DNA from: Acidocella sp.
GTDB lineage: Bacteria > Pseudomonadota > Alphaproteobacteria > Acetobacterales > Acetobacteraceae
Assembly (NCBI GenBank): GCA_027451225.1
Contig: DAIDJU010000155.1
Span: 1-52,798 of the forward strand
Length of the DNA stretch: 52,798 nucleotides
Reading direction: 5' to 3'
Below the pieces are notes generated by a model. It saw only the letters and a program-made list of their open reading frames with translations. It had not been told where the DNA came from and did not search any database. The translations under genes and the position numbers were made by a program. How positions within the stretch are numbered: the stretch's first letter is position 1; every line of letters starts with the position of its first letter. Positions 30,965 to 45,704 of the stretch are shown one piece after another.

Positions 30965-32548
30965 TTACGGCGTCAAACCCCAGAAGAACTGAACCGGCGT
31001 CGTCAGACCCGACACATTTTTGTTAAATGCAATCGGCTCGAAAAACTGCCCTAGAATGCCGACACTGGCATCATTCAGCACATCCTTTTGCACCTGAGCG
31101 GCTATTGCCTGCTGTTGCGTCAGCGTCGTAGCCTCGACGAAAGCTTGGCGGTCAGCTTCCAGCTTCGGATCGCTCGGCCAGCCTACCCAGCCAGTCTTTG
31201 AGTCTCCAGAATACGCAATCGCCTGTGGCGTGTCGATATCATCGGCAATCCACCAAGTATCGAACACGTTCCACCCGTTCTGGACACCACGATTGGAACG
31301 ACGCACCAGCATCTGATCCCAGGTCATCTTCTGGACCTGAACATTCATCCCGATATTTTCAAGCGTCTTGACCGTCACATCGGTGAAGTCCGCCAGTACC
31401 GGAATATCGATAGGATCAAGCACAACCACTGGCGTACCGTTATAACCAGCCTGCTTCAGCGCGTAGCGCGCCGCTGTGGGGTTGGCCATCTTCATGCTCC
31501 AATTACCCGCATCGGTTGCGTATGTCGTACCGCAAGGGAAGATCGAATAACAAGTCCGCCACCAGCGCGGATCGGTACCGAATGCCGCCTGCATATAGGC
31601 GGTTTGATCAATGGCTTCGAGCACCGCGAGCCGTACATTCTTGTTGTTGAACGGCGGAATGAGCGTGTTGAAACGAATCATCCCCATTGCGCCGGGCGGC
31701 GATGTCGGTTCCACAATAATGCTCTTATCCGCCTCAAGTTCCGGCACAACACTCATCGGCGGGGATTCGTAATATTGCACATCGCCATAGATCAAGGCTT
31801 TGGCCGCCTCTTGCTCAGTGGCATAATGGATGAGATCAATCTCATCGGCCTTGGCGATTTTTGCGCCCGCCGCCAGCGAGGACGGGTCGGAGCGCGGCAC
31901 GTAATACGGGTTCTTCTTATAAACAGCCTTGCTGCCCGGAACCCAATCCTTCATGATGAACATATACGGGCCGGAACCAGTGGGATCTTTGATCGACTGG
32001 TATGGACTCGTCTCGGCGATGCGCTTCGGCATCATGAACGGCACGTTCGACGACAATTTGGCGAGCGACGCCAGCACCAGACCATCCGGCGCTTTCAGTT
32101 GCATCACGATTGTCTTGCTGTCGGGTGCCGTTAAACTTACGACATCCTCAAATAATTGCTGCCCCGCACCATCACGCTTGCCCCAGCGCTCCAACGACGC
32201 CACGCAATCCCCCGCGGTGACATCTGTACCATCGCTCCATTTCAGGCCTTTACGCAGAACAAATGTCCACGTCTTTTGATCGGGCGACACAGACCAGCTA
32301 TCAACCATTTGCGGTTTAGGTTGAAAATTCTGATCCATCGCAAACAGCGTATCGTAAACAAGATACCCGTGCGTCCTGACAATATACGCCGTTGTGGTGA
32401 TCGGATCGAGCGTCTCCAAACCACTATGAACCGCCACACTTAGCGTTGAAGGCGCTGCGTGAACCTTATGCGGCATAGCCGTGCCCACAACAAAAGGCAG
32501 CAGGAACGTTGCCGACAAGGAAAATTTCAAAAGCTTCTTTAATGACAT
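30965..32548 (-). CDS. Orphan ABC-type peptide-family substrate-binding protein
   Basis: 527-aa periplasmic solute-binding protein of family 5 (DppA/OppA type). The signal MSLKKLLKFSLSATFLLPF ends near VHAAPS (about 31). The mature protein has LSVAVHSGLETLDPITTTA, LVYDTLFAMDQNF and TWTFVLRKGLKWSDGTDVT, all classical. GGGAGG lies 8 nt before the ATG. No permease or ATPase genes are adjacent, so it must share another importer or act as a sensor. It is divergent, across 280 bp, from the PqqD-like/ATP-grasp operon and may be co-regulated with it. Confidence 0.93.
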   Translation of the reverse strand: MSLKKLLKFSLSATFLLPFVVGTAMPHKVHAAPSTLSVAVHSGLETLDPITTTAYIVRTHGYLVYDTLFAMDQNFQPKPQMVDSWSVSPDQKTWTFVLRKGLKWSDGTDVTAGDCVASLERWGKRDGAGQQLFEDVVSLTAPDSKTIVMQLKAPDGLVLASLAKLSSNVPFMMPKRIAETSPYQSIKDPTGSGPYMFIMKDWVPGSKAVYKKNPYYVPRSDPSSLAAGAKIAKADEIDLIHYATEQEAAKALIYGDVQYYESPPMSVVPELEADKSIIVEPTSPPGAMGMIRFNTLIPPFNNKNVRLAVLEAIDQTAYMQAAFGTDPRWWRTCYSIFPCGTTYATDAGNWSMKMANPTAARYALKQAGYNGTPVVVLDPIDIPVLADFTDVTVKTLENIGMNVQVQKMTWDQMLVRRSNRGVQNGWNVFDTWWIADDIDTPQAIAYSGDSKTGWVGWPSDPKLEADRQAFVEATTLTQQQAIAAQVQKDVLNDASVGILGQFFEPIAFNKNVSGLTTPVQFFWGLTP

Positions 32549-32828: not shown

Positions 32829-33173
32829 ATGGCCGACCGTCTTGCGTTGCAAACCGCTCAGCTGGTCTCGATTACGGGTAATCCAGCCCCCCCGCCCAAG
32901 CGCGCTTCAACAGCCGCAGGATTACGTTTTTACGGTGACGAATTCGTATTCGATACAGTGTCCGGGATGTTTTTCCGCCTGAGCACAACAGCCAGTTTTA
33001 TATTGAGGTCCCTGGTCGGCGGCACCAGCATTGCGGATATTCCCGCCTTGATGGAAGACCGCTACGGCATCGACCATCCCACCGCAACGAGGGACATCCA
33101 GCTTTTTCTGAATGAGCTCGCCGCAATAGAGCCTTTGGACCGCTTTATCCATGACACAGCACGTACAGATTAA
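32829..33173 (+). CDS. PqqD-family (RRE-like) protein, not the pqq-operon copy
   Basis: 114 aa. An unstructured, Pro-rich N-terminal extension (about 1-30) precedes a PqqD fold: LRFYGDEFVFDTVSGMFFRL (three strands), TTASFILRSLVGGTSIADI (first helix), a TATRDIQLFLNELAAI helix and an end near EPLDRF. PqqD-type RiPP recognition elements hand a precursor peptide to a modifying enzyme. Here no radical SAM gene follows; the next gene is an ATP-grasp ligase overlapping by 23 bp. AGGA lies 8 nt before the ATG. Whether it binds a peptide is unproven. The true pqqD is at 42277-42555. Confidence 0.8.
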   Translation: MADRLALQTAQLVSITGNPAPPPKRASTAAGLRFYGDEFVFDTVSGMFFRLSTTASFILRSLVGGTSIADIPALMEDRYGIDHPTATRDIQLFLNELAAIEPLDRFIHDTARTD

Positions 33174-34248
33174 CTCAATCTCGGTTGCCGTTACAGGATT
33201 GCACCGCGGCGATAATCCTCAACCCGGCGCCTCAGTCATCGCGAGCCTGCGCCGCCGCTTCCCTGGGCTGCGGATCGTCGGCCTTTCCTACGACCCGATG
33301 GAAAGTTCGATCTATTGCCGAGATAACAGCCATCTCGACGCTGTGTATCTCCTGCCCTACCCCCGCACCGGCCCCAAGGCGTTGCTCGAAAGGCTGGAAG
33401 CCATCCTCGCCAAAGAGAAAATAGACTGCATCATCCCCTGCCTTGACTCTGAAATCATGAATTTCATCGAGCTGCAGGGGACACTGTCCAAGCGCGGCAT
33501 TAAAACCATGTTGCCCAGCAAAGCTGCGTTCCTGCGGCGCGGCAAGGAGAATCTCTCCATGCTGTGCAATCGCCTTGGCATGCCTACCCCGGAAACCAGA
33601 GTGGCCAAGGATTCCAGCGAGCTGAGCAAATTCGCCGAGCAGATCGGCTACCCGGTTTACGTCAAGGGCAAATATTACGAAGCTCATCTTGCCACCAACG
33701 AAGCCGAACTCCGTGCCAATTTCGACGAACTTGCCGAGCTGTGGGGCCTGCCGGTCCTGGCGCAGGAGATGGTGATCGGCGAGGAGTATGATATTGTCGG
33801 CCTGGGAGATGGCCATGGCAATCTCATCGGCAGCTGCTCGATCCGAAAGATGCTGCGTACTTCTGCGGGAAAAGGCTTCGCCGGTGTCGTGATCGCAGAT
33901 CCGCGCCTTGATGATCTTGTCCGGCGTTTTATTCGCGCGCTGCGCTGGGCGGGTCCGTTCGAGTTGGAGTTCATCAAAGCTCCTGGGCGGCCGCATCTGT
34001 TGTTTGAGATGAACCCGCGCTTTCCCGCCTGGGTAGATTTTCCCTCACAGCTCGGCTGCAACCTGCCTGCCCGCTTGCTGGAACATCTGATGGGGAGCGA
34101 GGAAACGCCCCTATCCACATGCGAGGCTGGGCGCATATTCATTCGCCATTCGGTCGATGTGCTGGGCGATATTTCCGATCTTGCGGAACTCGCCAGCACC
34201 GGCGAGCGCACCAGCTCGCCCGTCCTCAACTTCCCTGGGAGGCCATAA
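33151..34248 (+). CDS. ATP-grasp ligase
   Basis: 365-aa ATP-grasp enzyme related to the carbamoyl-phosphate synthase large-chain type. A pre-ATP-grasp Rossmann-like region (1-110) has IDCIIPCLDSEIMNFIELQ. The ATP lid begins FLRRGKENLSMLCNRLGMPTP, with GYPVYVKGKYYEA as the ATP-binding lysine strand and AQEMVIGEEYDIVG as the adenine hinge. The metal-binding end is FELEFIKAPG ... LLFEMNPRFPAW, with Glu and Asn-Pro-Arg. Such enzymes join a carboxylate to an amine via acyl phosphate. Substrates are unknown. The start overlaps the PqqD-like gene by 23 bp; its TAATG end overlaps the decarboxylase start by 1 bp. Confidence 0.88.
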   Translation: MTQHVQINSISVAVTGLHRGDNPQPGASVIASLRRRFPGLRIVGLSYDPMESSIYCRDNSHLDAVYLLPYPRTGPKALLERLEAILAKEKIDCIIPCLDSEIMNFIELQGTLSKRGIKTMLPSKAAFLRRGKENLSMLCNRLGMPTPETRVAKDSSELSKFAEQIGYPVYVKGKYYEAHLATNEAELRANFDELAELWGLPVLAQEMVIGEEYDIVGLGDGHGNLIGSCSIRKMLRTSAGKGFAGVVIADPRLDDLVRRFIRALRWAGPFELEFIKAPGRPHLLFEMNPRFPAWVDFPSQLGCNLPARLLEHLMGSEETPLSTCEAGRIFIRHSVDVLGDISDLAELASTGERTSSPVLNFPGRP

Positions 34249-35675
34249 TGGATCGTTCTTACGTTCCCCCCGTCATCAGTGGCGAACTCGGCCGCAACGC
34301 TCCTCGCGTGGCGGAAGACCGCAATTTTTATGCGCGCGGCCCCCGCGCACCATCGCTGTTTCAAATCGACGGCCTTCCCGTCACCGGCCTCGTCGAGGAA
34401 TTCGGCTCGCCTCTCTTTGTCTTTTCTGAATATGACATCCGGCAAAAAGCCCGCAGGATGCGTGAAGCCTTCAAAAGCCGTTATGGCAAGACGAGCTTCG
34501 CCTGGTCGGTCAAGACCAACTATCTCAACGCCATCTGCAAGATCTTCCAAAGCGAAGGCTGGATCGCGGAAGTCGTCTCTCAATTCGAATATGAAAAAGT
34601 CCGCAGCATTGGCTTTGCCGGCAGCGACATCGTCTTCAATGGCCCCTACAAACCACGCGCGGCCCTGAAGACGGCGATCGAAGAAGGCGCCATCATCCAG
34701 ATCGACAACTGGGACGAACTCAGCCAGATCGAGGAGTTGGTTGCCGACAGAAAGAAGCCCGTGGATGTCGGGCTGCGCGTCTGGCTGGATGCCGGCATTA
34801 AACCCGTATGGTCGAAATTCGGCTTCGCACTGGAAAATGGTGAGGCGGAGCGTGCCGCCACGCGGATTCTGGAAAACAAAAAACTGCATCTGCATACGCT
34901 GCACAGCCATATCGGCACATATATTCTCGCGCCCGACGCCTATGGTGTTGCGGCCAAGAAGCTTCTGCATCTGCGCGAGGAATTACGGCACAAGCATCGT
35001 CATCTGGTGCCCTGCCTCAACCTTGGCGGCGGCTTCCCCTCGCAAAGCCTTCTGCACGGCTTTACCGCTCCCGTGGAGCAGGTCGTTCCGCCCATTGAAG
35101 CCTATGCGACTGCGATCACCAACGTGCTCCGCGAACTGCCCCCTGACGAGCAACCCTTGCTTCGGCTTGAGTCCGGGCGCTGCCTCATTGACGAAGCCGG
35201 CTATCTTCTCAGCTCGATTATCGCGGTCAAAGGCGTAAACCGCCCGATCCTCACCGATGAGGATCTCTCCGCCCGCGCCTACAAAGAGCGTATGATTTTG
35301 AACGAGGATTCGCGTATCGGCTATGTTATCGATGCCGGGATCAACCTGCTCTACACTAGCGCCTGGTATCAGTTCCAGATCCTGCCTGCACGCGCCATAG
35401 ATGCACCGCCCATCCCATCGCGCATCTACGGCTCGCTCTGCATGGCTATCGACGTGATACGCGACCATGTGGATCTTCCGCCGCTGGAAACTGGTGATAT
35501 CCTGACGATCCACCCCGTTGGGGCCTATAACGTCACGCAATGGATGCAGTTTATCCAGTACCGTCCCGCGGTGGTGCTGATCGGAAATAACGGCAAGGCG
35601 GATGTCATCCGCGCCCGTGAAAAGCTCGAAGATATTTGTGGGCCGGAATGCATCCCCAAGCATCTGGCAGAATGA
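34248..35675 (+). CDS. PLP-dependent fold-III decarboxylase (DAP/ornithine decarboxylase-like)
   Basis: 475-aa alanine-racemase-fold enzyme. The PLP lysine is K89 in SFAWSVKTNYLN. LHSHIGTY matches the HxHIG motif of diaminopimelate decarboxylase. LNLGGGFPS is the glycine-rich phosphate loop, LESGRCLIDEAGYLL aligns with the EPGR site, and SLCMAIDVIRDH supplies the catalytic Cys of the second subunit. An N-terminal extension of about 45 residues is unusual. Genuine lysA is often longer in its C-terminal barrel, so this looks like a specialised paralogue acting on a pathway amino acid. It sits tightly between the ATP-grasp and UT-M23 genes. Confidence 0.9.
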   Translation: MDRSYVPPVISGELGRNAPRVAEDRNFYARGPRAPSLFQIDGLPVTGLVEEFGSPLFVFSEYDIRQKARRMREAFKSRYGKTSFAWSVKTNYLNAICKIFQSEGWIAEVVSQFEYEKVRSIGFAGSDIVFNGPYKPRAALKTAIEEGAIIQIDNWDELSQIEELVADRKKPVDVGLRVWLDAGIKPVWSKFGFALENGEAERAATRILENKKLHLHTLHSHIGTYILAPDAYGVAAKKLLHLREELRHKHRHLVPCLNLGGGFPSQSLLHGFTAPVEQVVPPIEAYATAITNVLRELPPDEQPLLRLESGRCLIDEAGYLLSSIIAVKGVNRPILTDEDLSARAYKERMILNEDSRIGYVIDAGINLLYTSAWYQFQILPARAIDAPPIPSRIYGSLCMAIDVIRDHVDLPPLETGDILTIHPVGAYNVTQWMQFIQYRPAVVLIGNNGKADVIRAREKLEDICGPECIPKHLAE

Positions 35676-35679
35676 AATA

Positions 35680-37860
35680 ATGTCCGAACAAGCCAAATCC
35701 GGCGAATGGCCGCAAATCTCGATGCGGCCCATGCGCCGCGCGGGAGACCAGCTCACCGCCCGGATCGGCGGCGCGCTCGGCTCGGTCTTTCTGATCGGCG
35801 ATCCCAAGCTCGGCCTGCTGCTCTGGGCAGCCGTCACGATCGGCCATATGCGCGCCCTGATCTTTGGTTTGTTCGGCATGTGGATTGGCGATTTCATCGA
35901 CCGTCTGGTGGGCGTGCAGGATAAACCTGCCCTTGGCGGCGGCATCCGGGCCAATGCGATCCTCGCCGCGATCTCGATCTCCTGGCTCACCTCCACCTCT
36001 TACGCGCCGGTGGAAACGCAGATCCTGGTGACCGCGCTGGGGGCCAGCGCAGCGGCATTGCTCACCGCGGCGTTGCTGCAAACCCTCTCCAACACGCTGC
36101 TCCCGCCAATGGCGCTTGGGTTCAGCATTGTCGCCGGCACATTGTTCATGCTGTTTCCCGTATGGGTGGCGGGCGCCTCCAGCACGCTGCTCACTTGGCC
36201 TGCCCCGGTTAACGCCATCACCGATGTGGAGATCTTCGTCCGTTCGCTTGGCTCCCTGCTGTTTGCACCTAAGCTGCAAGTCGGGCTGATCGTCGGGCTG
36301 GCATTGCTGCTATGGTCCAGGGCTATTTTTGTCAGCGGGCTTATCGGGTGGATGGCCGGGGCGCTCACCTCAATCGAACTACAGGGCCTGTTTGTGCCAT
36401 GCTACTGGCAACCAACCTCGTATAATTTCTTCATCGCCGGCATGGCGCTGGGGGCGGCGTATTTTCTGCCGGGCTGGCAGAGCCTTGGCTTGGCGGCGAT
36501 GGGCGGTGCGGCGGCCGCGATCATCGCGACACTCATCCAGCACATACAGCCGGATTTGGCGCTGCTGCCATTCCCGGCCATCATCACGGTGTGGATCGGC
36601 TTGGCCGCCTTCAACCTGAGCCGGGACGAACCCTTGTTCCGCCGCAATACCCGCCCCGGAATGCCGCCGGAACAAGCCTGGCTATACGAGGTCGACCATG
36701 TCCGCCGCTTCGGCCATGATGAACCTTTGCTCGTCGTACCCGTCGCGGGGGCCGTGCGCGTCTCCCAGGGGTTTTCCGGCCGGCTGAGCCATGCCAACGC
36801 CTGGCGCCACGCGCTCGACTTCCAACGCCCTGCCGGAGCCTCGATCTGGGATGCGCCAGTCACCGCGCCCGCCTCAGGGGTTATCGAGCGCGTCAGGGAT
36901 AACGTGGCGGACAATCAGATCGGCATCTGCAATTACGCCGAGAACTGGGGCAATTATATCCTGCTCCGCATGGACCAGGGGGGCTGGGCGCTGCTCGCAC
37001 ATTTACAGCAATCGAGCATCGCCGTGGCTGCCGGAACGCATGTGGAGCTGGGGGCCTATTTGGGCAAGGTGGGCAATTCAGGCCGCTCGCCCGTGCCGCA
37101 TCTGCATTTGCAGGTGCAGGGGACACCCTTCATCGGGGCACCGACCATCCCCTTCCGCTTGGCCAATTATGAGACACAACCCCAAGGCGGCTCCACAGCA
37201 GTCTGGCGGGAATCCGGCATACCGCCGGAGGAAGCCATCATCACCGCCGCCTGGCCTGTTCCCGCCGTTTATAAGCTGCTGACGAGCCAGGCACCCGGCA
37301 CAAGCGTATGGACGGCCGATGTCACCGGCACACTCCCGGCGCGCTACCGCCAGCCGCGGGGCCGTACGAAGATCGAGCGCCTCACCACCCGGCTGAACAG
37401 CGCAGGGGAACACATCCTCACCTCCGCCTCGGGCGATGCCATGATGTTGCATCTGGACCCCGACGCGTGGCGTATACGCGAGGTCCAGAGCCTCCGGGCA
37501 CCTCTGCTGCGCTTGCTGGCGCTGGCGGCTGCCTCTGTTCCCTATGCCGCCAGGCAGGCCATGGAATGGCATGAACCGACGCTGGCCGGGGCCTGTGCCG
37601 CCGGCCCCTTCAGCCTCTCGCTCTGGCCCTACAGGCGGCTGCCCGTGCCGGAGATGCACTGCCTCTGCCTGGAGGCTCCCGCTGCGGAAACCGACATGCT
37701 GACGGTGGAGTCCACACCTGTCAGGCCCTCCCCCCTGCTGCCCTCGAAGATAACCTGCACCTTCCAGCGCCTCCGCGGCCCGGTGAAGATCGAGGCGGTG
37801 TTCGAGACCGGCAGCGTGACCTATGCACAGCTCTCCTTCGAACCCGGCTCGCCCCTCTAA
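35680..37860 (+). CDS. Urea-transporter-like membrane domain fused to M23 peptidase
   Basis: 726-aa two-domain protein. Residues about 20-325 are very hydrophobic, with about ten helices and repeats of the kind seen in the UT (urea transporter) family, such as GDPKLGLLLWAAVTIG and its later partner LFAPKLQVGLIVGLALLLWS. After a linker, residues about 360-490 form an M23 zinc peptidase: RHALDFQRPAG (H377, D380) and PHLHLQVQG (H474, H476). A further roughly 240-residue C-terminal region of beta character has no recognised family. ATG 35680 is 4 bp after the decarboxylase stop. M23 enzymes cut peptide cross-bridges; which side of the membrane it faces is uncertain. Confidence 0.82.
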   Translation: MSEQAKSGEWPQISMRPMRRAGDQLTARIGGALGSVFLIGDPKLGLLLWAAVTIGHMRALIFGLFGMWIGDFIDRLVGVQDKPALGGGIRANAILAAISISWLTSTSYAPVETQILVTALGASAAALLTAALLQTLSNTLLPPMALGFSIVAGTLFMLFPVWVAGASSTLLTWPAPVNAITDVEIFVRSLGSLLFAPKLQVGLIVGLALLLWSRAIFVSGLIGWMAGALTSIELQGLFVPCYWQPTSYNFFIAGMALGAAYFLPGWQSLGLAAMGGAAAAIIATLIQHIQPDLALLPFPAIITVWIGLAAFNLSRDEPLFRRNTRPGMPPEQAWLYEVDHVRRFGHDEPLLVVPVAGAVRVSQGFSGRLSHANAWRHALDFQRPAGASIWDAPVTAPASGVIERVRDNVADNQIGICNYAENWGNYILLRMDQGGWALLAHLQQSSIAVAAGTHVELGAYLGKVGNSGRSPVPHLHLQVQGTPFIGAPTIPFRLANYETQPQGGSTAVWRESGIPPEEAIITAAWPVPAVYKLLTSQAPGTSVWTADVTGTLPARYRQPRGRTKIERLTTRLNSAGEHILTSASGDAMMLHLDPDAWRIREVQSLRAPLLRLLALAAASVPYAARQAMEWHEPTLAGACAAGPFSLSLWPYRRLPVPEMHCLCLEAPAAETDMLTVESTPVRPSPLLPSKITCTFQRLRGPVKIEAVFETGSVTYAQLSFEPGSPL

Positions 37861-38811: not shown

Positions 38812-41172
38812 TTACAGCTTATATTTTAGCCCAACATACACGCCGATCGGCGCGCCGATGGAATAGCTGCGCGGGTTGGAATAATTCGGGCTCTGCGCCA
38901 CATACACCCCGCCATTGCCCGAAGTGGGCGAGAACGTGCCATAAGTGTAGTAGGCCTGATCCGTCAGGTTCTCGATGGTCCCGAACACCTGCAAGCGCCG
39001 CGTCACCCAGTAGCTGGAGGTGAGGTTGAGCACCACCGAGCCCGGCATCGGCTTTTCCAGATTCGCGGCGTCTCCCACCAGATATTCGCTGCTCTGGGCC
39101 GTGCCGTTCAGCCCGATGCTCCAGCGCGGCGAGATATCGTAGCTTACCCCGGCCTTGAGCACATGGCGCGGCACCATGGGCACACGGTCGCCGGGGGTTA
39201 CGGTGATGTCGCCATTGACGTCGGCCCCGGGGTTGTAGGCCGAGGAGACCAGGAACTGGTTCTGATAGGTGGCGTCGGTAAAGCTGTAGTTGAGATAGGT
39301 ATGCCAGCGCGTCGTCTCGTAGCGCAGCCCCAGCTCCACGCCCTGGCGGCGCACATTGCCGATATTGGAGAAATACCCCGCCCCTTGCGGATTCAGCGGC
39401 GATTGCAGGAACTCGATATCGTCGTTGGTAACGGAGCGGTACAAATCCAGCGTATAGGTCAGCATCCCGCCGCCCGGCCCAAAGGCAGTGCCCCGCAAAC
39501 CGGCCTGCACCTCGCGCGTCACCATCTGCTTCAGCGGCGGATCGCCGGACATGAAATTGGCCAGCGTGCAGGAATCCGCCGGGCTGGCGCAGGAGAGTTC
39601 GGCAGGCGTGGGCACGGCGTTCTGCTCGGACCATCCGGCATAGGCCGTCAGGCCCGGGGTGAGCTTGTAGCTCAACCCCACGGCCGGGTTGAAATGCGCG
39701 TAGTAATGCTGCCCGTTCAGCCCGCCCCCGGCGGCGTTGGGGTCCGCGGGAAGCTGGTTGTGCAGGTTGATCTGCGCGAGATTCAGCCGCCCGGCGGCGG
39801 TAAGGCTGAGACGGTCGGTGAGGTCGAACGTGTCGGACAGATACGCGCCGTAATACACGTTGCGGATGCCCACGCGCGTGGGCACCGTGCCGGGCTCGTC
39901 CACCACGTAGCCTGGGTTGGGGGTGTTGCCGGGCGTGTAATACACGCGGTTGTTCAGACCGAGCGCGCCATCATAGGCCGCGGCGGCGTACATGGTGTAG
40001 GCGCCGTCCAGGCTCACCCCCCCGGTGAGGGTATTGCCATGCCCCAGCAGCTTTTCGCTGTCGGTCACCTGCCCGGCGAGGCCGAAGGCGTTGGTGTTGG
40101 TGCTGTTCAGGGCAAGCTGGCCGTAATTCCCGCTATCACCCAGATAAGCCGGGATCGGCACGCCCCCCACGCCGGTGGCCACCGAGCCGTCACTCTGGCA
40201 CAGATAACCTTCGTTCACCCCTGGGCCGCAGGGCGTGTCGTTGGGGCCGTTGCCGTTGGTCAGGCCCTCGTGCAGGTTTTCCATATAGCCGGTGAGGTTC
40301 ATGCTCAGCGTGTCGCTGAAGCGGTGGTTCAGCGTGGCGGCGATCTTCACATATTTGTCGTCGATGCGGTTGGGGCCGGTGAACTGCGCGGAGGGATCGA
40401 CAGCCAGCACATCCTCCGGCACCGCGCCGGGGCCGTTGAGCGCCGAATGCGCCACCGTGACGTTGATATGCAGCTCGGTCGTCTCGCCGCGCCAACCGAG
40501 ATCGCCGTAGAAATTCTGGATGTCGGAGGATTGTCCGTCGCGCCAGCCGCCCTCATGCGCGGCGGAGACATCGACATAAGCCGCCGTATTGCCGCGTCGC
40601 AGCCCGTATTCGAGATTGCCCTCGATGCGCCCGAACGAACCGCCGGAGAGCGAGATCTCGCCGCCCGGATCGGTGAAACCGTTCTTCATCCGCACATCCA
40701 CCGCGCCGCCCAGGGCGTTGAGGCCGTAAGCCGGGTTGCCATCCTGCACCGAGAGCGAGGCGATGGCCTCGTTGGGCAGCAGCGACCAGATGGCGACGTC
40801 CCCGAACGGGGCGTTGAAGCGCGCGCCATCGACGTAAACCGAGAGCCCGGCGGGCGTGCCCTGGATCGGGGAAAGTTCGAAGCCGTGGTAGAAGATATCC
40901 GCCTGATACGGGTTACCCTGGCTCTGCGTCTGCGTCACGCCGGGCATTTCCTGGGCCAGTGCCTCGGTGAGGCTGGCAGTGCCGTTGGGCCGGAGTTGGG
41001 CGCGGTTGAGGGTTTGCACCGGGTGCGGCCATTTACGCTGGTCAATCACCGCCCCCCCCGCCGGGGCGATATGCACCACGATCTCGCCCGACACGGTCTG
41101 CTGTTGCGCCCAGGCAGGCGCCGTGCCCGCCAGCAGGAGCAACGGCACTGTCAGATGGTTTTTCTTGTTCAT
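38812..41172 (-). CDS. TonB-dependent outer membrane receptor at end of pqq operon
   Basis: 786-aa TonB-dependent transporter. The ATG is 41172, with a Sec signal cut after AWA (about residue 22); a TonB-box-like GEIVVHI lies shortly after. The plug domain holds LNRAQLRPNGTASLTEALAQ, IFYHGFELSPIQGTPAGLSV and NALGGAVDVRMKNGF. The rest is a beta-barrel ending YVGLKYKL. It begins 25 bp after the pqqE stop on the same strand, so it is probably co-transcribed. Known TonB receptors take up PQQ (PqqU of E. coli) and others take up lanthanide chelates; either would fit here. That assignment is inference from position. Confidence 0.92.
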   Translation of the reverse strand: MNKKNHLTVPLLLLAGTAPAWAQQQTVSGEIVVHIAPAGGAVIDQRKWPHPVQTLNRAQLRPNGTASLTEALAQEMPGVTQTQSQGNPYQADIFYHGFELSPIQGTPAGLSVYVDGARFNAPFGDVAIWSLLPNEAIASLSVQDGNPAYGLNALGGAVDVRMKNGFTDPGGEISLSGGSFGRIEGNLEYGLRRGNTAAYVDVSAAHEGGWRDGQSSDIQNFYGDLGWRGETTELHINVTVAHSALNGPGAVPEDVLAVDPSAQFTGPNRIDDKYVKIAATLNHRFSDTLSMNLTGYMENLHEGLTNGNGPNDTPCGPGVNEGYLCQSDGSVATGVGGVPIPAYLGDSGNYGQLALNSTNTNAFGLAGQVTDSEKLLGHGNTLTGGVSLDGAYTMYAAAAYDGALGLNNRVYYTPGNTPNPGYVVDEPGTVPTRVGIRNVYYGAYLSDTFDLTDRLSLTAAGRLNLAQINLHNQLPADPNAAGGGLNGQHYYAHFNPAVGLSYKLTPGLTAYAGWSEQNAVPTPAELSCASPADSCTLANFMSGDPPLKQMVTREVQAGLRGTAFGPGGGMLTYTLDLYRSVTNDDIEFLQSPLNPQGAGYFSNIGNVRRQGVELGLRYETTRWHTYLNYSFTDATYQNQFLVSSAYNPGADVNGDITVTPGDRVPMVPRHVLKAGVSYDISPRWSIGLNGTAQSSEYLVGDAANLEKPMPGSVVLNLTSSYWVTRRLQVFGTIENLTDQAYYTYGTFSPTSGNGGVYVAQSPNYSNPRSYSIGAPIGVYVGLKYKL

Positions 41173-41197
41173 GGGCGCCCCCTTCTTCTCAGCGTTT

Positions 41198-42280
41198 CTA
41201 CGGACGCCTGTATTTAAACTCCGGCGGCGGTGCGGCGGCTTCCGCCAGGGCGGCGGCGCGGATGCGCTCATGCTGCGGCGAGCGGTGGCAAACCGGATCG
41301 GTGGCCGTGGCATCGCCCACCAGAGCTAACGCCTGGCAACGGCAACCGCCGAAATCCACCTCGCGCTGGTCGCAGGAGCGGCAGGGCTCCTGCATCCACT
41401 CTGTGCCACGGAAGCGCTGGAAAGCGTCGCTGGCGTCCCATATCTCGCCAAGCTCCCGCTCACCCGCACGCTCGAAGCTCATGCCGGGAATGGAATCCGC
41501 CGCATGGCAGGGCAGCACGCGGCCATCAGGCGCGATGTTGATGAACCGGCTGCCCCAGCCGCCCATGCAGGTTTTCGGCAGATCGGCATGCAAATCCGGC
41601 AGCACGTAGTCGATCACCAACTGCCCGCGCAGCGCCTCGCGCCGCTCGGCCACAATGGCGTCGGCCCGCGCCAGCGTCGCCTCATCCGGGATCAGCGCCG
41701 CGCGGTTGGCCAGCGCCCAGCCATGATACTGCACATGCGCAACTTCCAGCCGCCCCGCCCCGAGGTCCAGTGCCAGGTTGATGATCTCGTCCAGACGGTC
41801 GAGATTCTGCCGGTGCACCACGGCGTTCAGCGTCAGCGCCATGCCGAGCTGCGGCACCAGCCGCGCCACTTCCAGCTTCTTCGCATGCGCGCCCTCGTAA
41901 GCCGCGATACGGTCGGCGCTCTCGGCATCCGCGCCCTGGATGCTCACCTGCACATGGTCCAGCCCGGCCTCGGCCAGAGCGCGCAACTTGGCTTCGTCCA
42001 GCAGCACGGCCGAAGTGATGAGATTGGTATACAGCCCGACCTTGGCGGCATGCGCCACCAGCTCCGGCAGATCGCGCCGCAGCGTCGGCTCGCCGCCGGA
42101 GAAATGGATTTGCAGCACGCCGAGGGCTGCGGCCTCATCCATCACGGCTTTCCAGAACTCGGTATCCCGCTCGGCATTGGCCTTGAGCAGTTCCAGCGGG
42201 TTGGAGCAGTACGGGCATTGCAGCGGGCAGCGATGTGTCAGCTCCGCCAGCAGCGCCATCGGCGGCGGATGGATCGTCAT
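41198..42280 (-). CDS. pqqE: PQQ biosynthesis radical SAM enzyme PqqE
   Basis: 360-aa radical SAM/SPASM enzyme that links Glu and Tyr side chains of PqqA in the first committed step of PQQ synthesis. The cluster motif is HRCPLQCPYC (C18, C22, C25), followed by IHFSGGEPTLRRDL. The C-terminal SPASM cysteines include TCMGGWGSRF, PCHAAD, EPCRSCDQREVDFGGCRCQA. The ATG overlaps the pqqD stop (42277-42280). Confidence 0.98.
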   Translation of the reverse strand: MTIHPPPMALLAELTHRCPLQCPYCSNPLELLKANAERDTEFWKAVMDEAAALGVLQIHFSGGEPTLRRDLPELVAHAAKVGLYTNLITSAVLLDEAKLRALAEAGLDHVQVSIQGADAESADRIAAYEGAHAKKLEVARLVPQLGMALTLNAVVHRQNLDRLDEIINLALDLGAGRLEVAHVQYHGWALANRAALIPDEATLARADAIVAERREALRGQLVIDYVLPDLHADLPKTCMGGWGSRFINIAPDGRVLPCHAADSIPGMSFERAGERELGEIWDASDAFQRFRGTEWMQEPCRSCDQREVDFGGCRCQALALVGDATATDPVCHRSPQHERIRAAALAEAAAPPPEFKYRRP

Positions 42281-42555
42281 GCGGTAATCATTCCCTTGTC
42301 GTGCAGGCCAGAGAGCAGTTCCACCACATCCGCCCGCACCGTTTCCAGTTCGGTTTCGTATTGCTTGGCCAGAGCCGCGCAGAGAGCTTCGATATTGGTG
42401 GCGCCGTCGAGCTTTTCCAGCACCGCGTTGGCGATGTCGTCCAGCACCAGCACGCGCTCCGGGGCCAGCAGGATATGCTGGCCCCGAGCGGCATCGAAAC
42501 GGCGGCGCACGCCGGGCTTTAAGCGCGGCACCGCCTCCAGGGCGAGCACGGTCAT
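42277..42555 (-). CDS. pqqD: PQQ biosynthesis chaperone PqqD
   Basis: 92-aa PqqD, the RiPP recognition element that presents PqqA to PqqE. It starts at MTVLALEAVPRLKPGVRRRF and has the expected AARGQHILLAPERVLVLDD strands and the ANAVLEKLDGATNIEALCAA helix. It overlaps both pqqC and pqqE by 4 bp. Confidence 0.97.
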   Translation of the reverse strand: MTVLALEAVPRLKPGVRRRFDAARGQHILLAPERVLVLDDIANAVLEKLDGATNIEALCAALAKQYETELETVRADVVELLSGLHDKGMITA

Positions 42556-43301
42556 GCCGCCACGGGCAGCGAAACGGCTTCGGAGAGGAACGCTCCGGCC
42601 GGAATCATCCCCGGCGTGACATAGGCCAGATACAGCGCATCGAGCTGCGCCCAGAGCAAATCGCATTTAAAGCGCAGCGCGCCGAGTGCCGCCTGCTGCT
42701 GCTCCACCGTGCGGGCATGCGTCTTCACGTAGTTCAGCGCGAAATCGGCATCGCGCGGGGCCTGATGCAGGCGGGCGTTGAAATAGACCAGCGTGTCCCG
42801 GTCCACGAAATCGTAATTCGCCAGCATCCCGGCCACGCGTTCGGAAATGATGATGGGCGAGAACATCTCGGTCAACGAGGAAGCCACAGCCTCCAGCAGC
42901 GAGCGCTCACGCACGAAATTCACATAGGCGTCTACCGCGTAGCGGGTGATGGGCAGGATGGCGGTGCAGGATTCCACCAGCTCGGCCTCCAGCCCCACGC
43001 CGGTGGCCAGACGCAGCCAGCGGGCGATGCCGCCATCGCCCGGCGCGTCGCCATCATGGTCCACCAGGCGCTGGCGCCAGGCGCGGCGGGATTCGGTATC
43101 GGGGAAACGGCCGACGATCAGCGCGTCCTTCCGGGGAATGCTGCACTGGTAGTAATAGCGGTTCAGCGCCCAGGCCTGCACCTGCTCGCGCGTGCAGCCG
43201 CCGGAATGCAGCATCTTATGGAACGGATGCAGGTTGTGATAATGAGTCGCGCCGATTTCGCGCAGCGCGGCTTCAAGCTCATGATCGTTCAGCAGCTTCA
43301 T
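42552..43301 (-). CDS. pqqC: Pyrroloquinoline-quinone synthase PqqC
   Basis: 249-aa cofactor-less oxidase doing the final ring closure and eight-electron oxidation of PQQ. Conserved segments are YHNLHPFHKMLHSGGCTREQ, ALNRYYYQCSIPRKDALIVG, WRQRLVDHDGDAPGDGGIARW, and TEMFSPIIISERVAGMLANY. It overlaps pqqB and pqqD by 4 bp each. Confidence 0.98.
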   Translation of the reverse strand: MKLLNDHELEAALREIGATHYHNLHPFHKMLHSGGCTREQVQAWALNRYYYQCSIPRKDALIVGRFPDTESRRAWRQRLVDHDGDAPGDGGIARWLRLATGVGLEAELVESCTAILPITRYAVDAYVNFVRERSLLEAVASSLTEMFSPIIISERVAGMLANYDFVDRDTLVYFNARLHQAPRDADFALNYVKTHARTVEQQQAALGALRFKCDLLWAQLDALYLAYVTPGMIPAGAFLSEAVSLPVAA

Positions 43302-44224
43302 GTCGTTACCTCCATACCGTCATAGGCAATCTCCCATCCGGCTTCGCGCACCTGCGCTGCTTCCGGCGAGTCGTCGCATAGAATCGGGTTCGTATTATTT
43401 ATATGTATGAAGATGCGCCGCCCCAGCTTCACGGGGGCGAAGGCGGCGATCGTCCCGGCTTCGCCGGAGACGCTGATGTGACCCATGCGGGTCCCGCTCT
43501 TATGGCCCAGCCCGGCGCGAATCATCTCGTCATCCTGCCAGAGCGTGCCATCGAAAAACAAAAAGTCAGCGCCATCAACACGGGCGCGCAGCGCATCCGT
43601 CACGGCGTTGCAGCCGGGGATGAAGATCAGGCGATGCCCGGTGGCGTCGGTGATGTCGAGGCCGATCACCGCATCGGGCGAGAGCAGTTCCTCGATATTG
43701 TCGCTGGCCTCGGTATAAAGCGGGATCTTGCCGCCGACGCGGAAGGGCGAGACGGTCAGGCCCAACGGCTCGCCGCGCGCATCACGGATCTCGTCTGTGG
43801 TGCCTGCATCCAGCACGCGGCGCGGCACGCGCTGGCCGGGCAGAACGTCGAAGATGACATTGCGGTGCAGAATATCCAGCACCGAGGCCGGGCCGTACAG
43901 GCCGAATTCGTGGCCCTCACGCAGCGAGAGCAGGCCGGTGATGCAATCCACATCCGCCCCCGTGAGCACCACCGCCGCAATGGGCGAGCCGCGCAACGCG
44001 CCGGGCTTGGGGTGCAGGCAGGGGGCTTTGTTAATCTGGTCGGGCAGATCGGGGCTGGCGTTCAGCAGCACCCAGCGCGCACCATCGGCGGACACGGCCA
44101 GCGAGGCCTGCGTGCGCGGCTTGGCGTGCGGGTCGCCCGTGCGGGCGCGGCGGCAATTGGCACAGCCGCAATTCCATTGCGGGAACCCACCTCCCGCTGC
44201 GGCGCCGAGTACCCGGACCTTCAT
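43298..44224 (-). CDS. pqqB: PQQ biosynthesis protein PqqB (metallo-beta-lactamase fold)
   Basis: 308-aa MBL-fold protein proposed to hydroxylate the tyrosine of the PQQ intermediate. It begins MKVRVLGAAAGGGFPQWNCG with the CGCANCRRAR zinc knuckle. The active-site motif is LTGADVDCITGLLSLREG, and IFIHINNTNPIL is the typical C-terminal signature. It follows pqqA by 42 bp. Confidence 0.97.
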   Translation of the reverse strand: MKVRVLGAAAGGGFPQWNCGCANCRRARTGDPHAKPRTQASLAVSADGARWVLLNASPDLPDQINKAPCLHPKPGALRGSPIAAVVLTGADVDCITGLLSLREGHEFGLYGPASVLDILHRNVIFDVLPGQRVPRRVLDAGTTDEIRDARGEPLGLTVSPFRVGGKIPLYTEASDNIEELLSPDAVIGLDITDATGHRLIFIPGCNAVTDALRARVDGADFLFFDGTLWQDDEMIRAGLGHKSGTRMGHISVSGEAGTIAAFAPVKLGRRIFIHINNTNPILCDDSPEAAQVREAGWEIAYDGMEVTT

Positions 44225-44266
44225 TACGATTGCCTGAGAGGCGGGTTACCCGGCGCCATGCGCTGA

Positions 44267-44344
44267 TTACTTCCGCACGGCGGAGACGTAAGAGTTGATC
44301 TCGGTGCCAACGCAGATTTCGGTCACGGTCGGTTTACGCCACAT
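44267..44344 (-). CDS. pqqA: PQQ precursor peptide PqqA
   Basis: 25-residue peptide, too short for usual ORF calling. AGGAGGAG sits 5-7 nt before the ATG (44344-44342). The sequence starts MWRKPTVTEICVGTEI and continues NSYVSAVRK. The conserved Glu15 and Tyr19 with three residues between them (EINSY) become the PQQ skeleton, matching the E-x3-Y rule. An internal Cys11 is unusual but not disqualifying. It is the first gene of pqqABCDE. Confidence 0.96.
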   Translation of the reverse strand: MWRKPTVTEICVGTEINSYVSAVRK

Positions 44345-44416
44345 AGTCACTCCTCCTTATATTGTTCACTTCGCCCTGAACTCAGATGTACGGCGGGCCA
44401 CCGCAACATGGGAATA

Positions 44417-44442
44417 GGCCGGGACCGGCAAAAGCCCCGGCC
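44417..44442 (-). terminator. Hairpin between cytochrome c gene and pqqA
   Basis: GGCCGGG / CCCGGCC arms (44417-44423 / 44436-44442) with a 12-nt loop, 6 nt after the cytochrome stop in the direction of transcription. The minus-strand sequence after it is TATTCCC, so there is no U-tract. It may reduce read-through from the dehydrogenase operon into pqqA. Confidence 0.5.
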
Positions 44443-44448
44443 AAAAGA

Positions 44449-44862
44449 TTACGGCTTCTGCGAAACCAGCGACTCTTTGGAACTAAGCCCAGCGGTGTAA
44501 TCGAACTTGGTGGTCCCAGCCGGATAGCCGTTCTGCTGCAGGATGTAGGCGAACACGTCCTCATACTGCTCATGCGTCAGGCTCGCGGGCTGGCCAGCGG
44601 GCATCTGCAGCGCAACTTCAGTGAAGACCGGGCCGATCGTGTACTTGTTGCTCGCGCTGGCGAAAGCCTGGCCAACCAGAGCCGGGCCGGCGGCACCGCT
44701 CAAATCCGCGCCGTGGCACATGGCGCAGTTCTGGGAGAACACATCCGCGCCGGCCTTGGCTTGGTCGGCGGTGTAGAGCGCGGGCGGAGCCGCGAGGGCC
44801 ACCGTGCTGGAACCAGCCAGCAATGCGGCGCCAAGCAGAGCGCGGATCTTCAAGATATTCAT
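44449..44862 (-). CDS. Periplasmic c-type cytochrome, probable PQQ-dehydrogenase electron acceptor
   Basis: 137 aa. A Sec signal (MNILKIRALLGAALLAGSST, cut after ALA) precedes one heme site, NCAMCHGADLSG. The likely Met ligand is in VALQMPAGQPASLTHEQYED, a pattern typical of cytochromes next to quinoprotein alcohol dehydrogenases. It should accept electrons from the dehydrogenase at 45705-47474 and pass them to an oxidase. It is the third gene of that operon. Confidence 0.92.
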   Translation of the reverse strand: MNILKIRALLGAALLAGSSTVALAAPPALYTADQAKAGADVFSQNCAMCHGADLSGAAGPALVGQAFASASNKYTIGPVFTEVALQMPAGQPASLTHEQYEDVFAYILQQNGYPAGTTKFDYTAGLSSKESLVSQKP

Positions 44863-44884
44863 TCCTTATATCCTCTTCAGTTTT

Positions 44885-45655
44885 TCACTCATCAGCCGCC
44901 TGGTACGGCGCCACCAGCGTCTTAAGCTGTCCCGCCTGCTTCAGGCGTTCCAGACCTTGGTTGAACGCCCGTGCCTGCGCCGCGGCCTGCGGCGTGTACA
45001 ACGCTACCACATTCCAGGCCGCGTCGGGCATAGACATTATCGCTGTGCGTAAAGCGTGCGGATGAGCCGTTTCCTCCCGTACCAACCAGGGCTGCCACAC
45101 CATGGCGCTCCCTACTTCGCCCTTCAGCAGCGCGGAAAGCAGGTCGTCATTGGTATAGTACACATGCTCGGCATGGGCGGTCTGAGTATTGAAATAGCCG
45201 TTCGGCACGGTGAGGAAGTCCACGCCGATATCAGCCTTGGCCGCCATGGCGGCAAAACCCTGCACGGGCGCGCCGGTGGTGGCCATTACAAAACCGGTCC
45301 TGGCGTAAGGCTTGGTCGCCTGCAGCCCCTTGGGCACGCCGAAGCCACTCGCCTCGACGGGTACGCCCATCACCAGATCGCACTGCTTCGCCATCTTGGC
45401 GAAGGCCTTGGCCGGGTCAATCTTCGCGTCGTCGCTATCGCCGCCCACACCGTCATCGCCGGTGTTGAGCTTCACGATTTCGGCGCGTAGCCCGCTTTGC
45501 GCCGCCACGGCCTGGGCCACGGCGAGGTCGGTGGCGGAGAGCGGGTTGGCCTCGTCCACGCAGAAGCGAATAGCGGCGCCACCTGCAGGAGATTGGGCGT
45601 CACCGGCAACCGCATGCGCGGGCGAGGCCAGGACCATGGCGGCGAGAACCGCCAT
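44885..45655 (-). CDS. MxaJ/XoxJ-like periplasmic binding protein
   Basis: 256-aa family-3-type periplasmic binding protein, of the kind linked to PQQ methanol/alcohol dehydrogenases (MxaJ/XoxJ), where it is thought to help mature or activate the enzyme. It has RFCVDEANPLSATDLAVAQA, MAKQCDLVMGVPVEASGFGV and SMPDAAWNVVALYTPQ. The start is uncertain. ATG 45655 has AAGG 4 nt upstream and opens MAVLAAMVLASPAHA, which lacks positive charge. An in-frame ATG at 45730 would give a basic n-region but overlaps the dehydrogenase by 26 bp, has no clear ribosome site and uses rare codons. Confidence 0.8.
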   Translation of the reverse strand: MAVLAAMVLASPAHAVAGDAQSPAGGAAIRFCVDEANPLSATDLAVAQAVAAQSGLRAEIVKLNTGDDGVGGDSDDAKIDPAKAFAKMAKQCDLVMGVPVEASGFGVPKGLQATKPYARTGFVMATTGAPVQGFAAMAAKADIGVDFLTVPNGYFNTQTAHAEHVYYTNDDLLSALLKGEVGSAMVWQPWLVREETAHPHALRTAIMSMPDAAWNVVALYTPQAAAQARAFNQGLERLKQAGQLKTLVAPYQAADE

Positions 45656-45671
45656 GGCGCCTTGGGCTGCT

Positions 45672-45693
45672 CCCGGCGGCACGCGCCGCCGGG
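45672..45693 (-). other. GC-rich hairpin between dehydrogenase and binding-protein genes
   Basis: Perfect 9-bp stem CCCGGCGGC / GCCGCCGGG with a 4-nt loop, 11 nt after the dehydrogenase stop and just before the binding-protein start. It has no U-tract. It probably stabilises the upstream mRNA or reduces downstream expression, giving much more dehydrogenase than accessory protein. Confidence 0.6.
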
Positions 45694-45704
45694 AAACATC
45701 CGCC

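Follow-up and report, generated by a model that had tools for sequence, protein, structure and literature searches.

What is the purpose of an operon of four tightly spaced genes in Acidocella, which encode a PqqD-like protein, an ATP-grasp ligase, a pyridoxal phosphate (PLP) decarboxylase and a urea-transporter-fold (UT) membrane protein fused to an M23 peptidase domain (UT-M23)? The operon lies in a stretch of 52,798 nucleotides of Acidocella sp. DNA (contig DAIDJU010000155.1 of assembly GCA_027451225.1, here called the window), which forms contig C155 in a genome of 2.6 Mb. A first-pass annotation of the window, made from its letters without database searches, suggested a peptide-templated or peptide-derived small molecule that is ligated, decarboxylated and then released or exported. 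The four genes form a conserved unit. We regard them, with a probability of about 0.5, as a dedicated cassette for the biosynthesis and transport of a small molecule made by conjugation and subsequent decarboxylation. The genes and the domains of UT-M23 are as follows.

32829..33173, + strand: PqqD-like small protein of 114 aa, with the fold of recognition elements (RRE) of ribosomally synthesized and post-translationally modified peptides (RiPPs); PF05402, 41.8 bits
33151..34248, + strand: ATP-grasp ligase, PRK12767-like, 365 aa; PRK12767 model, Foldseek, conserved ATP-grasp residues
34248..35675, + strand: fold III (alanine-racemase-fold) PLP decarboxylase, 475 aa, active site resembling that of N-citrylornithine decarboxylase; PF02784/PF00278
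35680..37860, + strand: UT-M23 fusion, 726 aa, with a urea-transporter-fold channel, an M23 domain and a C-terminal beta domain; PF03253, PF01551
35776..36606, + strand: urea-transporter-fold membrane domain of UT-M23, residues 33-309; Pfam, Foldseek
36790..37119, + strand: M23 domain of UT-M23, with H371, D380, H441, H474 and H476; residue conservation

All four reading frames, their strand and their spacings (in order, overlaps of 23 bp and 1 bp, then a gap of 4 bp) agree with the first-pass annotation. The domain names given there also hold. Pfam scores exceed the cut-offs for PqqD (41.8 bits, cut-off 23.4), Orn_Arg_deC_N (97.3), Orn_DAP_Arg_deC (41.8), UT (76.6) and Peptidase_M23 (47.4). 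The ATP-grasp protein is below every Pfam cut-off; its name is based on a sub-cut-off score with the PRK12767 model (66.6 bits, cut-off 316) and on its AlphaFold model (12-row alignment, mean predicted local distance difference test, pLDDT, 78.7), for which Foldseek gives a match to 2pn1 (E 2.8e-18).

To describe the distribution of the gene set we used 398 Pseudomonadota genomes, sampled evenly across the phylum. In 35 of them, including the Acidocella source genome, a protein closely related to the decarboxylase is encoded (E 1e-60 or better); for the remaining 34 (20 + 14) the surrounding DNA was fetched and scanned with hidden Markov models (HMMs) of the operon parts. An ATP-grasp gene is located directly upstream of the decarboxylase gene in all 35 genomes, on the same strand and with a gap of at most 198 bp. 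It is preceded by a PqqD domain in 33 genomes at a gap of at most 61 bp, the commonest spacing being a 4 bp overlap, as is characteristic of coupled genes; the two loci without this domain (L109, L117) begin at a contig end. A UT or UT-M23 gene is found downstream in 31 genomes, once with a GNAT gene between (L104). One of the four remaining loci, L118, is cut by a contig end; in L093, L105 and L106 the contig continues and the UT gene is truly missing.

The other genes of the operon lead to the same loci. PF03253 is present in 55 of the 398 genomes, namely in the 31 mentioned above, in five with further UT-M23 fusions and in 19 with a UT domain in frames of 294-463 residues. Three of the five further fusions adjoin operon genes (L102, L103, L108), and two adjoin a different gene pair (G104, G131), which is described below. 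Thus none of the 36 UT-M23 or UT loci that were opened (the 19 genomes with short frames were not) is an orphan. A separate scan of GTDB species genomes for the ATP-grasp protein, which was based on short peptide patterns and finds close relatives only, resulted in 12 loci (L038-L049): five from Acidocella or near kin, one each from Pseudomonas songnenensis, Stutzerimonas sp. S1, Pseudolabrys and Reyranella, and three from other metagenome-assembled genomes (MAGs). The nearest relatives, with 74-83% ATP-grasp identity, are Acidocella strains and MAGs. The decarboxylase is encoded in 12/12 of these loci, the PqqD-like protein and UT-M23 in 11/12 each, the exceptions (L048, L045) being cut by contig ends. 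The same gene order in 35/398 genomes and, apart from contig ends, in 12/12 loci is far beyond chance. The conserved system that the first-pass annotation had proposed is thereby supported: close homologues are not scattered over unrelated contexts. In L102 (7159-8572, genome G191) the decarboxylase is split over two overlapping frames, which is either a frameshift or an assembly error. Plasmid-borne spread was rejected, since 72,556 plasmid records contain no relative of the decarboxylase at E 1e-50; the 26 ATP-grasp matches in these records are all below 60% identity.

The decarboxylase is not the housekeeping lysA: it scores 191.9-196.5 bits with TIGR01048 (cut-off 297.9), a true lysA is encoded on contig C57 (438.6 bits, above the cut-off), and the acid beside the catalytic Cys is missing from the operon enzyme. 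Two more decarboxylases of the alanine-racemase fold, with GPSCD-type Cys motifs, are encoded on contigs C106 and C152. In a tree of 50 rows, 47 of them from operons (46 distinct, the window's row being included twice), a 100/99 branch separates all operon rows from the genome's three paralogs (lysA, C106, C152), which form a long-branch outgroup; with these rows only, and with five loci of at most 600 bits left out (L045, L079, L102, L103, L108), the tree speaks to separation from the paralogs and not to grouping with FigC-type enzymes. Of the PDB chains, that of N-citrylornithine decarboxylase (7kh2) is closest, with E 8.9e-50, and a BtrK chain is also among the matches (E 3.3e-22). The score with the FslC model NF041039 is 194.2 bits, below its cut-off of 500.

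Residues of FigC were mapped onto the operon enzyme by one alignment, with an inferred chain offset of 19 residues. M355, Y383 and T327 of FigC correspond to M399, Y427 and T370. Among the rows that have letters at these positions (53 rows in all), M399, which is beside the catalytic Cys, is Met in 50/50, Y427 is Tyr in 49/49 and T370 is Thr in 50/50. The genome's own lysA reads GPICESAD, with an acid after the catalytic Cys, where the operon enzyme has Met. The acid that binds the side-chain amine is thus lost, as reported for FigC. According to PMC7857480, the substrates of the characterised relatives FigC, SbnH, AcsE, MccE and BtrK are conjugated amino acids, linked to a citryl group, a peptide or a carrier. 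Because Met replaces the acid, no free side-chain amine is expected at that place, and we infer that the substrate is conjugated before it is decarboxylated. The active site fits an amide ligation followed by decarboxylation, in line with the earlier suggestion. T330 of FigC corresponds to an invariant W373. Its citrate ligands are replaced as well, H357 by I401 and R387 by Q431; judging from the loss of these ligands, the conjugation partner is not citrate.

The ATP-grasp protein is a plausible candidate for the preceding ligation. Nine of its residues (K132, K172, E212, K233, K241, E271, E286, N288 and R290) show no substitution, each being present in 48-50 of 50 rows with gaps in the others, and E286, N288 and R290 belong to the E-x-N-P-R signature of ATP-grasp enzymes. 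Its best matches are models and structures similar to carbamoyl phosphate synthase (CPSase); the D-Ala-D-Ser ligase model gives only 14.9 bits.

The membrane domain of UT-M23 has the fold of urea transporters. The AlphaFold model of the whole protein (pLDDT 74.9) is weak over the M23 part; its first 19 Foldseek matches are all urea transporters, which fit the membrane domain, and DvUT (PDB 3k3f) is aligned over 352 columns (E 1.7e-9). In the phmmer alignment to the DvUT chain, positions 35 and 192 correspond to the urea contacts, which we take to be Q24 and E187, and in 45 rows they are mixed, mostly Ser. Therefore urea itself is an unlikely substrate. In the M23 domain, H371, D380, H441, H474 and H476 are each found in 44-45 of 45 rows, with gaps in the others, so that the domain is probably an active metal enzyme; the metal ligands among these residues are presumed from the family. 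The first His precedes the Asp by nine residues, as compared to four in the HxxxD motif of LytM-type M23 enzymes.

The first-pass annotation had named a membrane-anchored peptidase, a description that implies an outward M23 domain. The loop charges favour the opposite side. They were counted in 31 sequences, with helices taken from the AlphaFold model and sides assigned on the assumption that both ends are inside (in the mammalian UT-B, both the N- and the C-terminus are cytosolic). Inward loops contain 2.8 (residues 11-30), 1.1 (135-146) and 1.1 (211-220, with R214) Lys or Arg residues per sequence, and outward loops 0.19 (103-111), 0.72 (158-179), 0 (236-244) and 0.10 (289-298). In L079 (14377-19595, genome G043), which also encodes two ATP-grasp domains in one chain of 713 residues, the M23 domain is replaced with a sirtuin domain, SIR2; SIR2 requires NAD. 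The charges and this replacement together make a cytosolic M23 domain rather likely.

In 45 rows of the PqqD-like protein, only D42 and G46 exceed 97% conservation. Its identity with the PqqD of pyrroloquinoline quinone (PQQ) biosynthesis was rejected because it scores 18 bits with TIGR03859, below the cut-off of 46. Another gene of the window (42277-42666, - strand) is probably pqqD; it scores only 20 bits with the HMM of the operon PqqD. Among the 46 open reading frames (ORFs) with a PqqD domain above 45 bits, 18 are 262-276 residues long. Both long ORFs submitted to Pfam (from L094 and L092, the PqqD domain of the latter being just below the cut-off) have TetR_N in front of the PqqD domain. 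Such a fusion suggests that the domain serves in sensing or regulation, at least in that clade.

A pairing of ligase and decarboxylase also occurs with other enzymes. In the genomes G104 and G131, which belong to one genus, the fetched stretch around UT-M23 contains no match to the PqqD-like protein, the ATP-grasp ligase or the fold-III decarboxylase. Instead, two other enzymes are encoded near UT-M23. One is an Orn/Lys/Arg-type (OKR) decarboxylase with a different fold, recognized by PF01276 in L100 (245.7 bits) and by homology in L101 (1933 bits). The other, 500 residues long, belongs to the PRK06524 family (509.8 and 512.5 bits, cut-off 684); it is distantly similar to biotin carboxylase and thus a member of the ATP-grasp superfamily. 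The two enzymes are encoded together in all ten genomes of the sample with a PRK06524-family protein (E 1e-60): side by side in seven, and with one AAT-type gene between them in three. An AAT-type homologue is present in all ten loci (L119-L126, L100, L101). A CN_hydrolase homologue is found in 8/8 loci without UT-M23 and in 0/2 loci with it (Pfam names from L119). Since UT-M23 accompanies both the fold-III operon and the PRK06524/OKR pair, the ligase and amino-acid decarboxylase are a recurring pair, of which UT-M23 goes with two versions.

The loci L079-L099 have partners that differ from those in Acidocella described below. By BLAST clusters these are a TPR-like protein (17/21 loci) and a protein of about 300 residues that looks barrel-like (16/21). 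Pfam, run on one partner of each kind, found TPR in the protein of L094 and no match for the barrel-like protein of L082, so "barrel" is our reading of the sequence. Homologues of both partners also occur in the exchanged loci L100 and L101; these partners may thus be associated with UT-M23 and not with the ligase.

The unit in Acidocella is larger than four genes. The following features flank the operon.

30965..32548, - strand: family 5 solute-binding protein (SBP_bac_5), signal-peptide-like start, divergent; PF00496, 226.9 bits
37867..38751, - strand: alpha/beta hydrolase of the dienelactone hydrolase family, signal-peptide-like start, convergent; PF01738, 52.5 bits
32656..32669, strand not applicable: FNR-type palindrome TTGAT-N4-ATCAA with one mismatch; divergent intergenic region

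The solute-binding protein (SBP) is encoded in 8/12 and the hydrolase in 11/12 of the loci L038-L049. The SBP gene is mostly divergent upstream and the hydrolase gene convergent downstream, with a rearrangement in L045-L047; in Reyranella, a Peripla_BP_6 protein is encoded upstream in place of the family 5 SBP. Among 38 genomes of the genus, UT-M23 (E 1e-60), the SBP (1e-100) and the hydrolase (1e-40) share an identical set of six, with one match each, and have none at these limits in the other 32; the ATP-grasp protein occurs in those same six among the 37 members scanned. The extent given in the first-pass annotation was thus drawn too narrowly for Acidocella, where the SBP and the hydrolase, both missed there, belong to a unit of six genes. 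Together with this patchy distribution, a drop in G+C content (0.51-0.61 over about 30-36.5 kb, 0.62-0.68 on either side, in a scan of 26-44.5 kb only) hints that the unit was perhaps acquired by transfer; most of UT-M23 and of the hydrolase gene falls in the part with normal G+C.

Further downstream on the - strand, at 38812-41313, adjoining the hydrolase gene and the pqq genes, is what reads as a TonB-dependent receptor. Inspection by eye of the ORF lists for the other Acidocella loci shows no such receptor; therefore it is probably tied to the pqq genes. The ORFs at 41198-47474 (- strand) resemble pqqE, pqqD, pqqC, pqqB, cytochrome c, a moxJ-like binding protein and a PQQ-dependent dehydrogenase, as judged by reading the sequences without a family search.

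The promoter region that the four genes were suggested to share is plausible in view of the 280 bp divergent region upstream, but a sigma-70 scan was at the level of chance (3 sites found, 2.2 expected). The palindrome TTGAT-N4-ATCAA, with at most one mismatch, occurs in 7/7 loci with a divergent SBP gene and in 0/38 other upstream regions, as compared to 0.64 expected in all 45 regions from single-base shuffles; the palindrome was chosen after viewing the same loci, so the count is after the fact, five of the seven loci are from one genus, and the region of L042 is too short. In the whole window it occurs twice (0.57 expected; 10 of 100 shuffles reach two). The palindrome corresponds to the FNR consensus, which was looked for in PMC6659574 and not found there. 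The cassette is thus possibly under FNR-type (low-oxygen) control in the loci with the SBP.

These observations can be combined into the following scheme of the biosynthesis and transport cassette. The ATP-grasp enzyme would form an amide between an amino acid and a partner. The conjugated amino acid, rather than a free diamino acid, would then lose its alpha-carboxyl to the fold-III decarboxylase, and the PqqD-like protein would aid both enzymes or sense for them. The urea-transporter-fold protein may move the product or a precursor, and the M23 domain, on its predicted cytosolic face, may hydrolyse or bind an amide-containing intermediate. In Acidocella and the two Pseudomonadaceae the cassette would work with the binding protein and the hydrolase, both of which look exported.

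Several points weigh against this scheme. The decarboxylase scores as high with the lysA model (196.5 bits) as with the FslC model (194.2), both below the cut-off, and the citrate ligands of FigC are not kept. UT-M23 is not strictly required by the unit, since three genomes keep the first three genes without UT-M23. The evidence of the exchanged cassette is from one genus. In UT-M23, the inward C-terminal linker contains 5.78 Lys or Arg and 5.00 Asp or Glu residues per sequence, and in loop 77-83 acids equal bases. In addition, the C-terminal part weakly matches LolA by Foldseek (E 1.9e-4, root-mean-square deviation about 10); LolA is a periplasmic protein, which argues against a cytosolic M23 domain.

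A bolder, rather speculative extension of the cassette scheme would treat it as a general device, in which a ligase masks an amino acid by attaching a carrier group, the decarboxylase acts on the masked form and an amide hydrolase, tethered at the cytosolic mouth of the urea-transporter-fold channel, frees the product as it passes. In such a device the hydrolase (M23, SIR2, CN_hydrolase) and the ligase/decarboxylase pair would both be exchangeable. We know of no other cytosolic M23 amidase coupled to a channel, and UT-M23 would be the first if the device is real.

A special case of the proposed cassette, which we consider unlikely, is a metallophore or siderophore that is exported and whose metal complex is caught by the SBP as a NikA- or GsiB-like protein. 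The nearest relative of the decarboxylase is indeed a siderophore enzyme, and the SBP does score with the models of GsiB (86.9 bits), NikA (75.3) and CntA (47.1), all far below the cut-off. A metallophore is hard to reconcile with the lost citrate ligands and with the absence of a recognizable NIS (nonribosomal-peptide-synthetase-independent siderophore) synthetase among the genes of the module. The TonB receptor is located by the pqq genes and is not listed for other Acidocella loci, and a NiFe hydrogenase is encoded in 2/6 genomes with the operon and in 10/32 without it. A nickelophore serving a hydrogenase, which the NikA-like SBP and the FNR-type box had suggested, was dropped since there is no association with NiFe hydrogenase.

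Somewhat less likely still is a compatible-solute or acid-stress cassette, in which a decarboxylated dipeptide-like solute is made, moved by the channel and turned over by the peptidase, as in the N-acetylglutaminylglutamine amide (NAGGN) pathway. Some loci do encode enzymes of the types that serve in NAGGN synthesis (TIGR03104, 197.8 bits, cut-off 570.1). An asparagine-synthase-type gene is present in L095 (Pfam), with homologues of 709 and 724 bits in L103 and L104, and GNAT homologues are found in L079, L103 and L104; these are three loci each among 48 searched. A second UT protein, consisting of the UT half and TPRs, is also encoded in L095 and L103 (Pfam) and in L104 (homologue); the stretches with this gene and the asparagine-synthase-type gene are 2072-5329 in L095, 1894-4867 in L103 and 4897-10763 in L104. 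OKR enzymes are known to serve in acid resistance. The protein of L095 passes the plain asparagine-synthase model TIGR01536 (343.9 bits, cut-off 267.1), which speaks against a solute of this kind. The same is true of the small number of loci with the extra genes, of the envelope partners, which are unusual for a solute, and of the FNR-type box found where an osmotic signal would be expected.

We consider a peptide-templated, RiPP-like pathway improbable. In such a pathway the PqqD-like protein would hold a precursor peptide, the ATP-grasp enzyme and the decarboxylase would modify it and the M23 domain would release it. PqqD domains do serve as RiPP recognition elements, and the PqqD-like protein scores with lasso and PQQ PqqD models, all below the cut-off. 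Graspetides are made by ATP-grasp ligases (PMC8939145). Against templating, no shared ORF of at least 18 residues was seen by eye in the intergenic regions of five Acidocella and two Pseudomonadaceae loci, a comparison that did not include distant genes and other flanks; the five Acidocella regions are 44-57% identical, with one pair at 80%. The exchanged cassette of G104 and G131 has no PqqD match either. Thus the templating part of the first-pass proposal finds no support.

Peptidoglycan remodelling, i.e., the action of a diaminopimelate-decarboxylase-like enzyme, an ATP-grasp ligase and an M23 endopeptidase on murein peptides with an MppA-like SBP, appears equally improbable: M23 families usually cut peptidoglycan, SBP family 5 includes binders of murein peptides, the metal-type residues of M23 are intact and L091 has a second M23 gene nearby, but the acid beside the Cys is Met in every row with letters, the M23 domain is (weakly) predicted to be cytosolic and is exchanged for SIR2 in L079, and the ATP-grasp protein is closest to CPSase-like models and far from D-Ala-D-Ser ligase. 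An anti-phage defence system was rejected because the six proteins match 0 PADLOC families at E 0.001.

The first-pass annotation knew of no described pathway with this gene set. In agreement with this, none was found in 5.39 million open full-text papers, judged by title and the start of the abstract, with subscription papers mostly outside the collection; among the same papers none contains both 'urea transporter' and 'ATP-grasp'. No paper on a UT-M23 fusion was found in the same literature, judged in the same way. About 1 in 11 sampled Pseudomonadota species carry the set, named strains from Acidocella to Stutzerimonas have it too, and its product is a clear gap. If the proposed cassette is real, PqqD domains would have a new function, M23 domains would have a role outside the cell wall, and the product would be a conserved metabolite. 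Two fusions are of interest in themselves, that of a urea-transporter fold to M23 and that of a TetR-type DNA-binding domain to a PqqD domain behind it, the latter seen in relatives.

The proposed chemistry is of a known kind, with FigA/FigC and BtrJ/BtrK as precedents; no precedent was found for the fusion of UT to M23 or for the way in which it is coupled to pairs of a ligase and a decarboxylase. BtrJ is reportedly the ATP-grasp partner of BtrK on the carrier BtrI in the butirosin pathway, and UT-M23 has no known counterpart in that system. BtrK is, like the operon enzyme as proposed here, a fold-III decarboxylase that acts on a tethered amino acid (PMC7857480). Unlike the butirosin system, the operon has no recognizable acyl carrier protein, and the PqqD-like protein is found instead. 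In the rhizoferrin pair FigA/FigC (FslA/FslC), the amide is likewise formed first and the conjugated amino acid is decarboxylated second (PMC7857480). FigC is the nearest decarboxylase in PDB and shares with the operon enzyme the Met beside the Cys, the tyrosine of the GAY motif and one Thr of the 3-10 helix. The ligase is a NIS synthetase there and an ATP-grasp enzyme here, and the two decarboxylases differ at H357, R387 and T330 of FigC and in the sub-cut-off score with the FslC model.

The PRK06524/OKR cassettes resemble the operon in combining a ligase with an amino-acid decarboxylase and, in G104 and G131, in being beside UT-M23. They differ from it in the fold of the decarboxylase, in the distant type of ATP-grasp, in the AAT-type homologue and in the CN_hydrolase that is encoded where UT-M23 is missing. 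UT-M23 itself has the fold of DvUT-type bacterial urea transporters and differs from them by the M23 fusion and by the mixed residues at the urea-contact positions. With M23 metallopeptidases it shares the H, D, H, H, H set, and it is distinguished from them by the spacing of H371 and D380 and by the predicted location in the cytosol.

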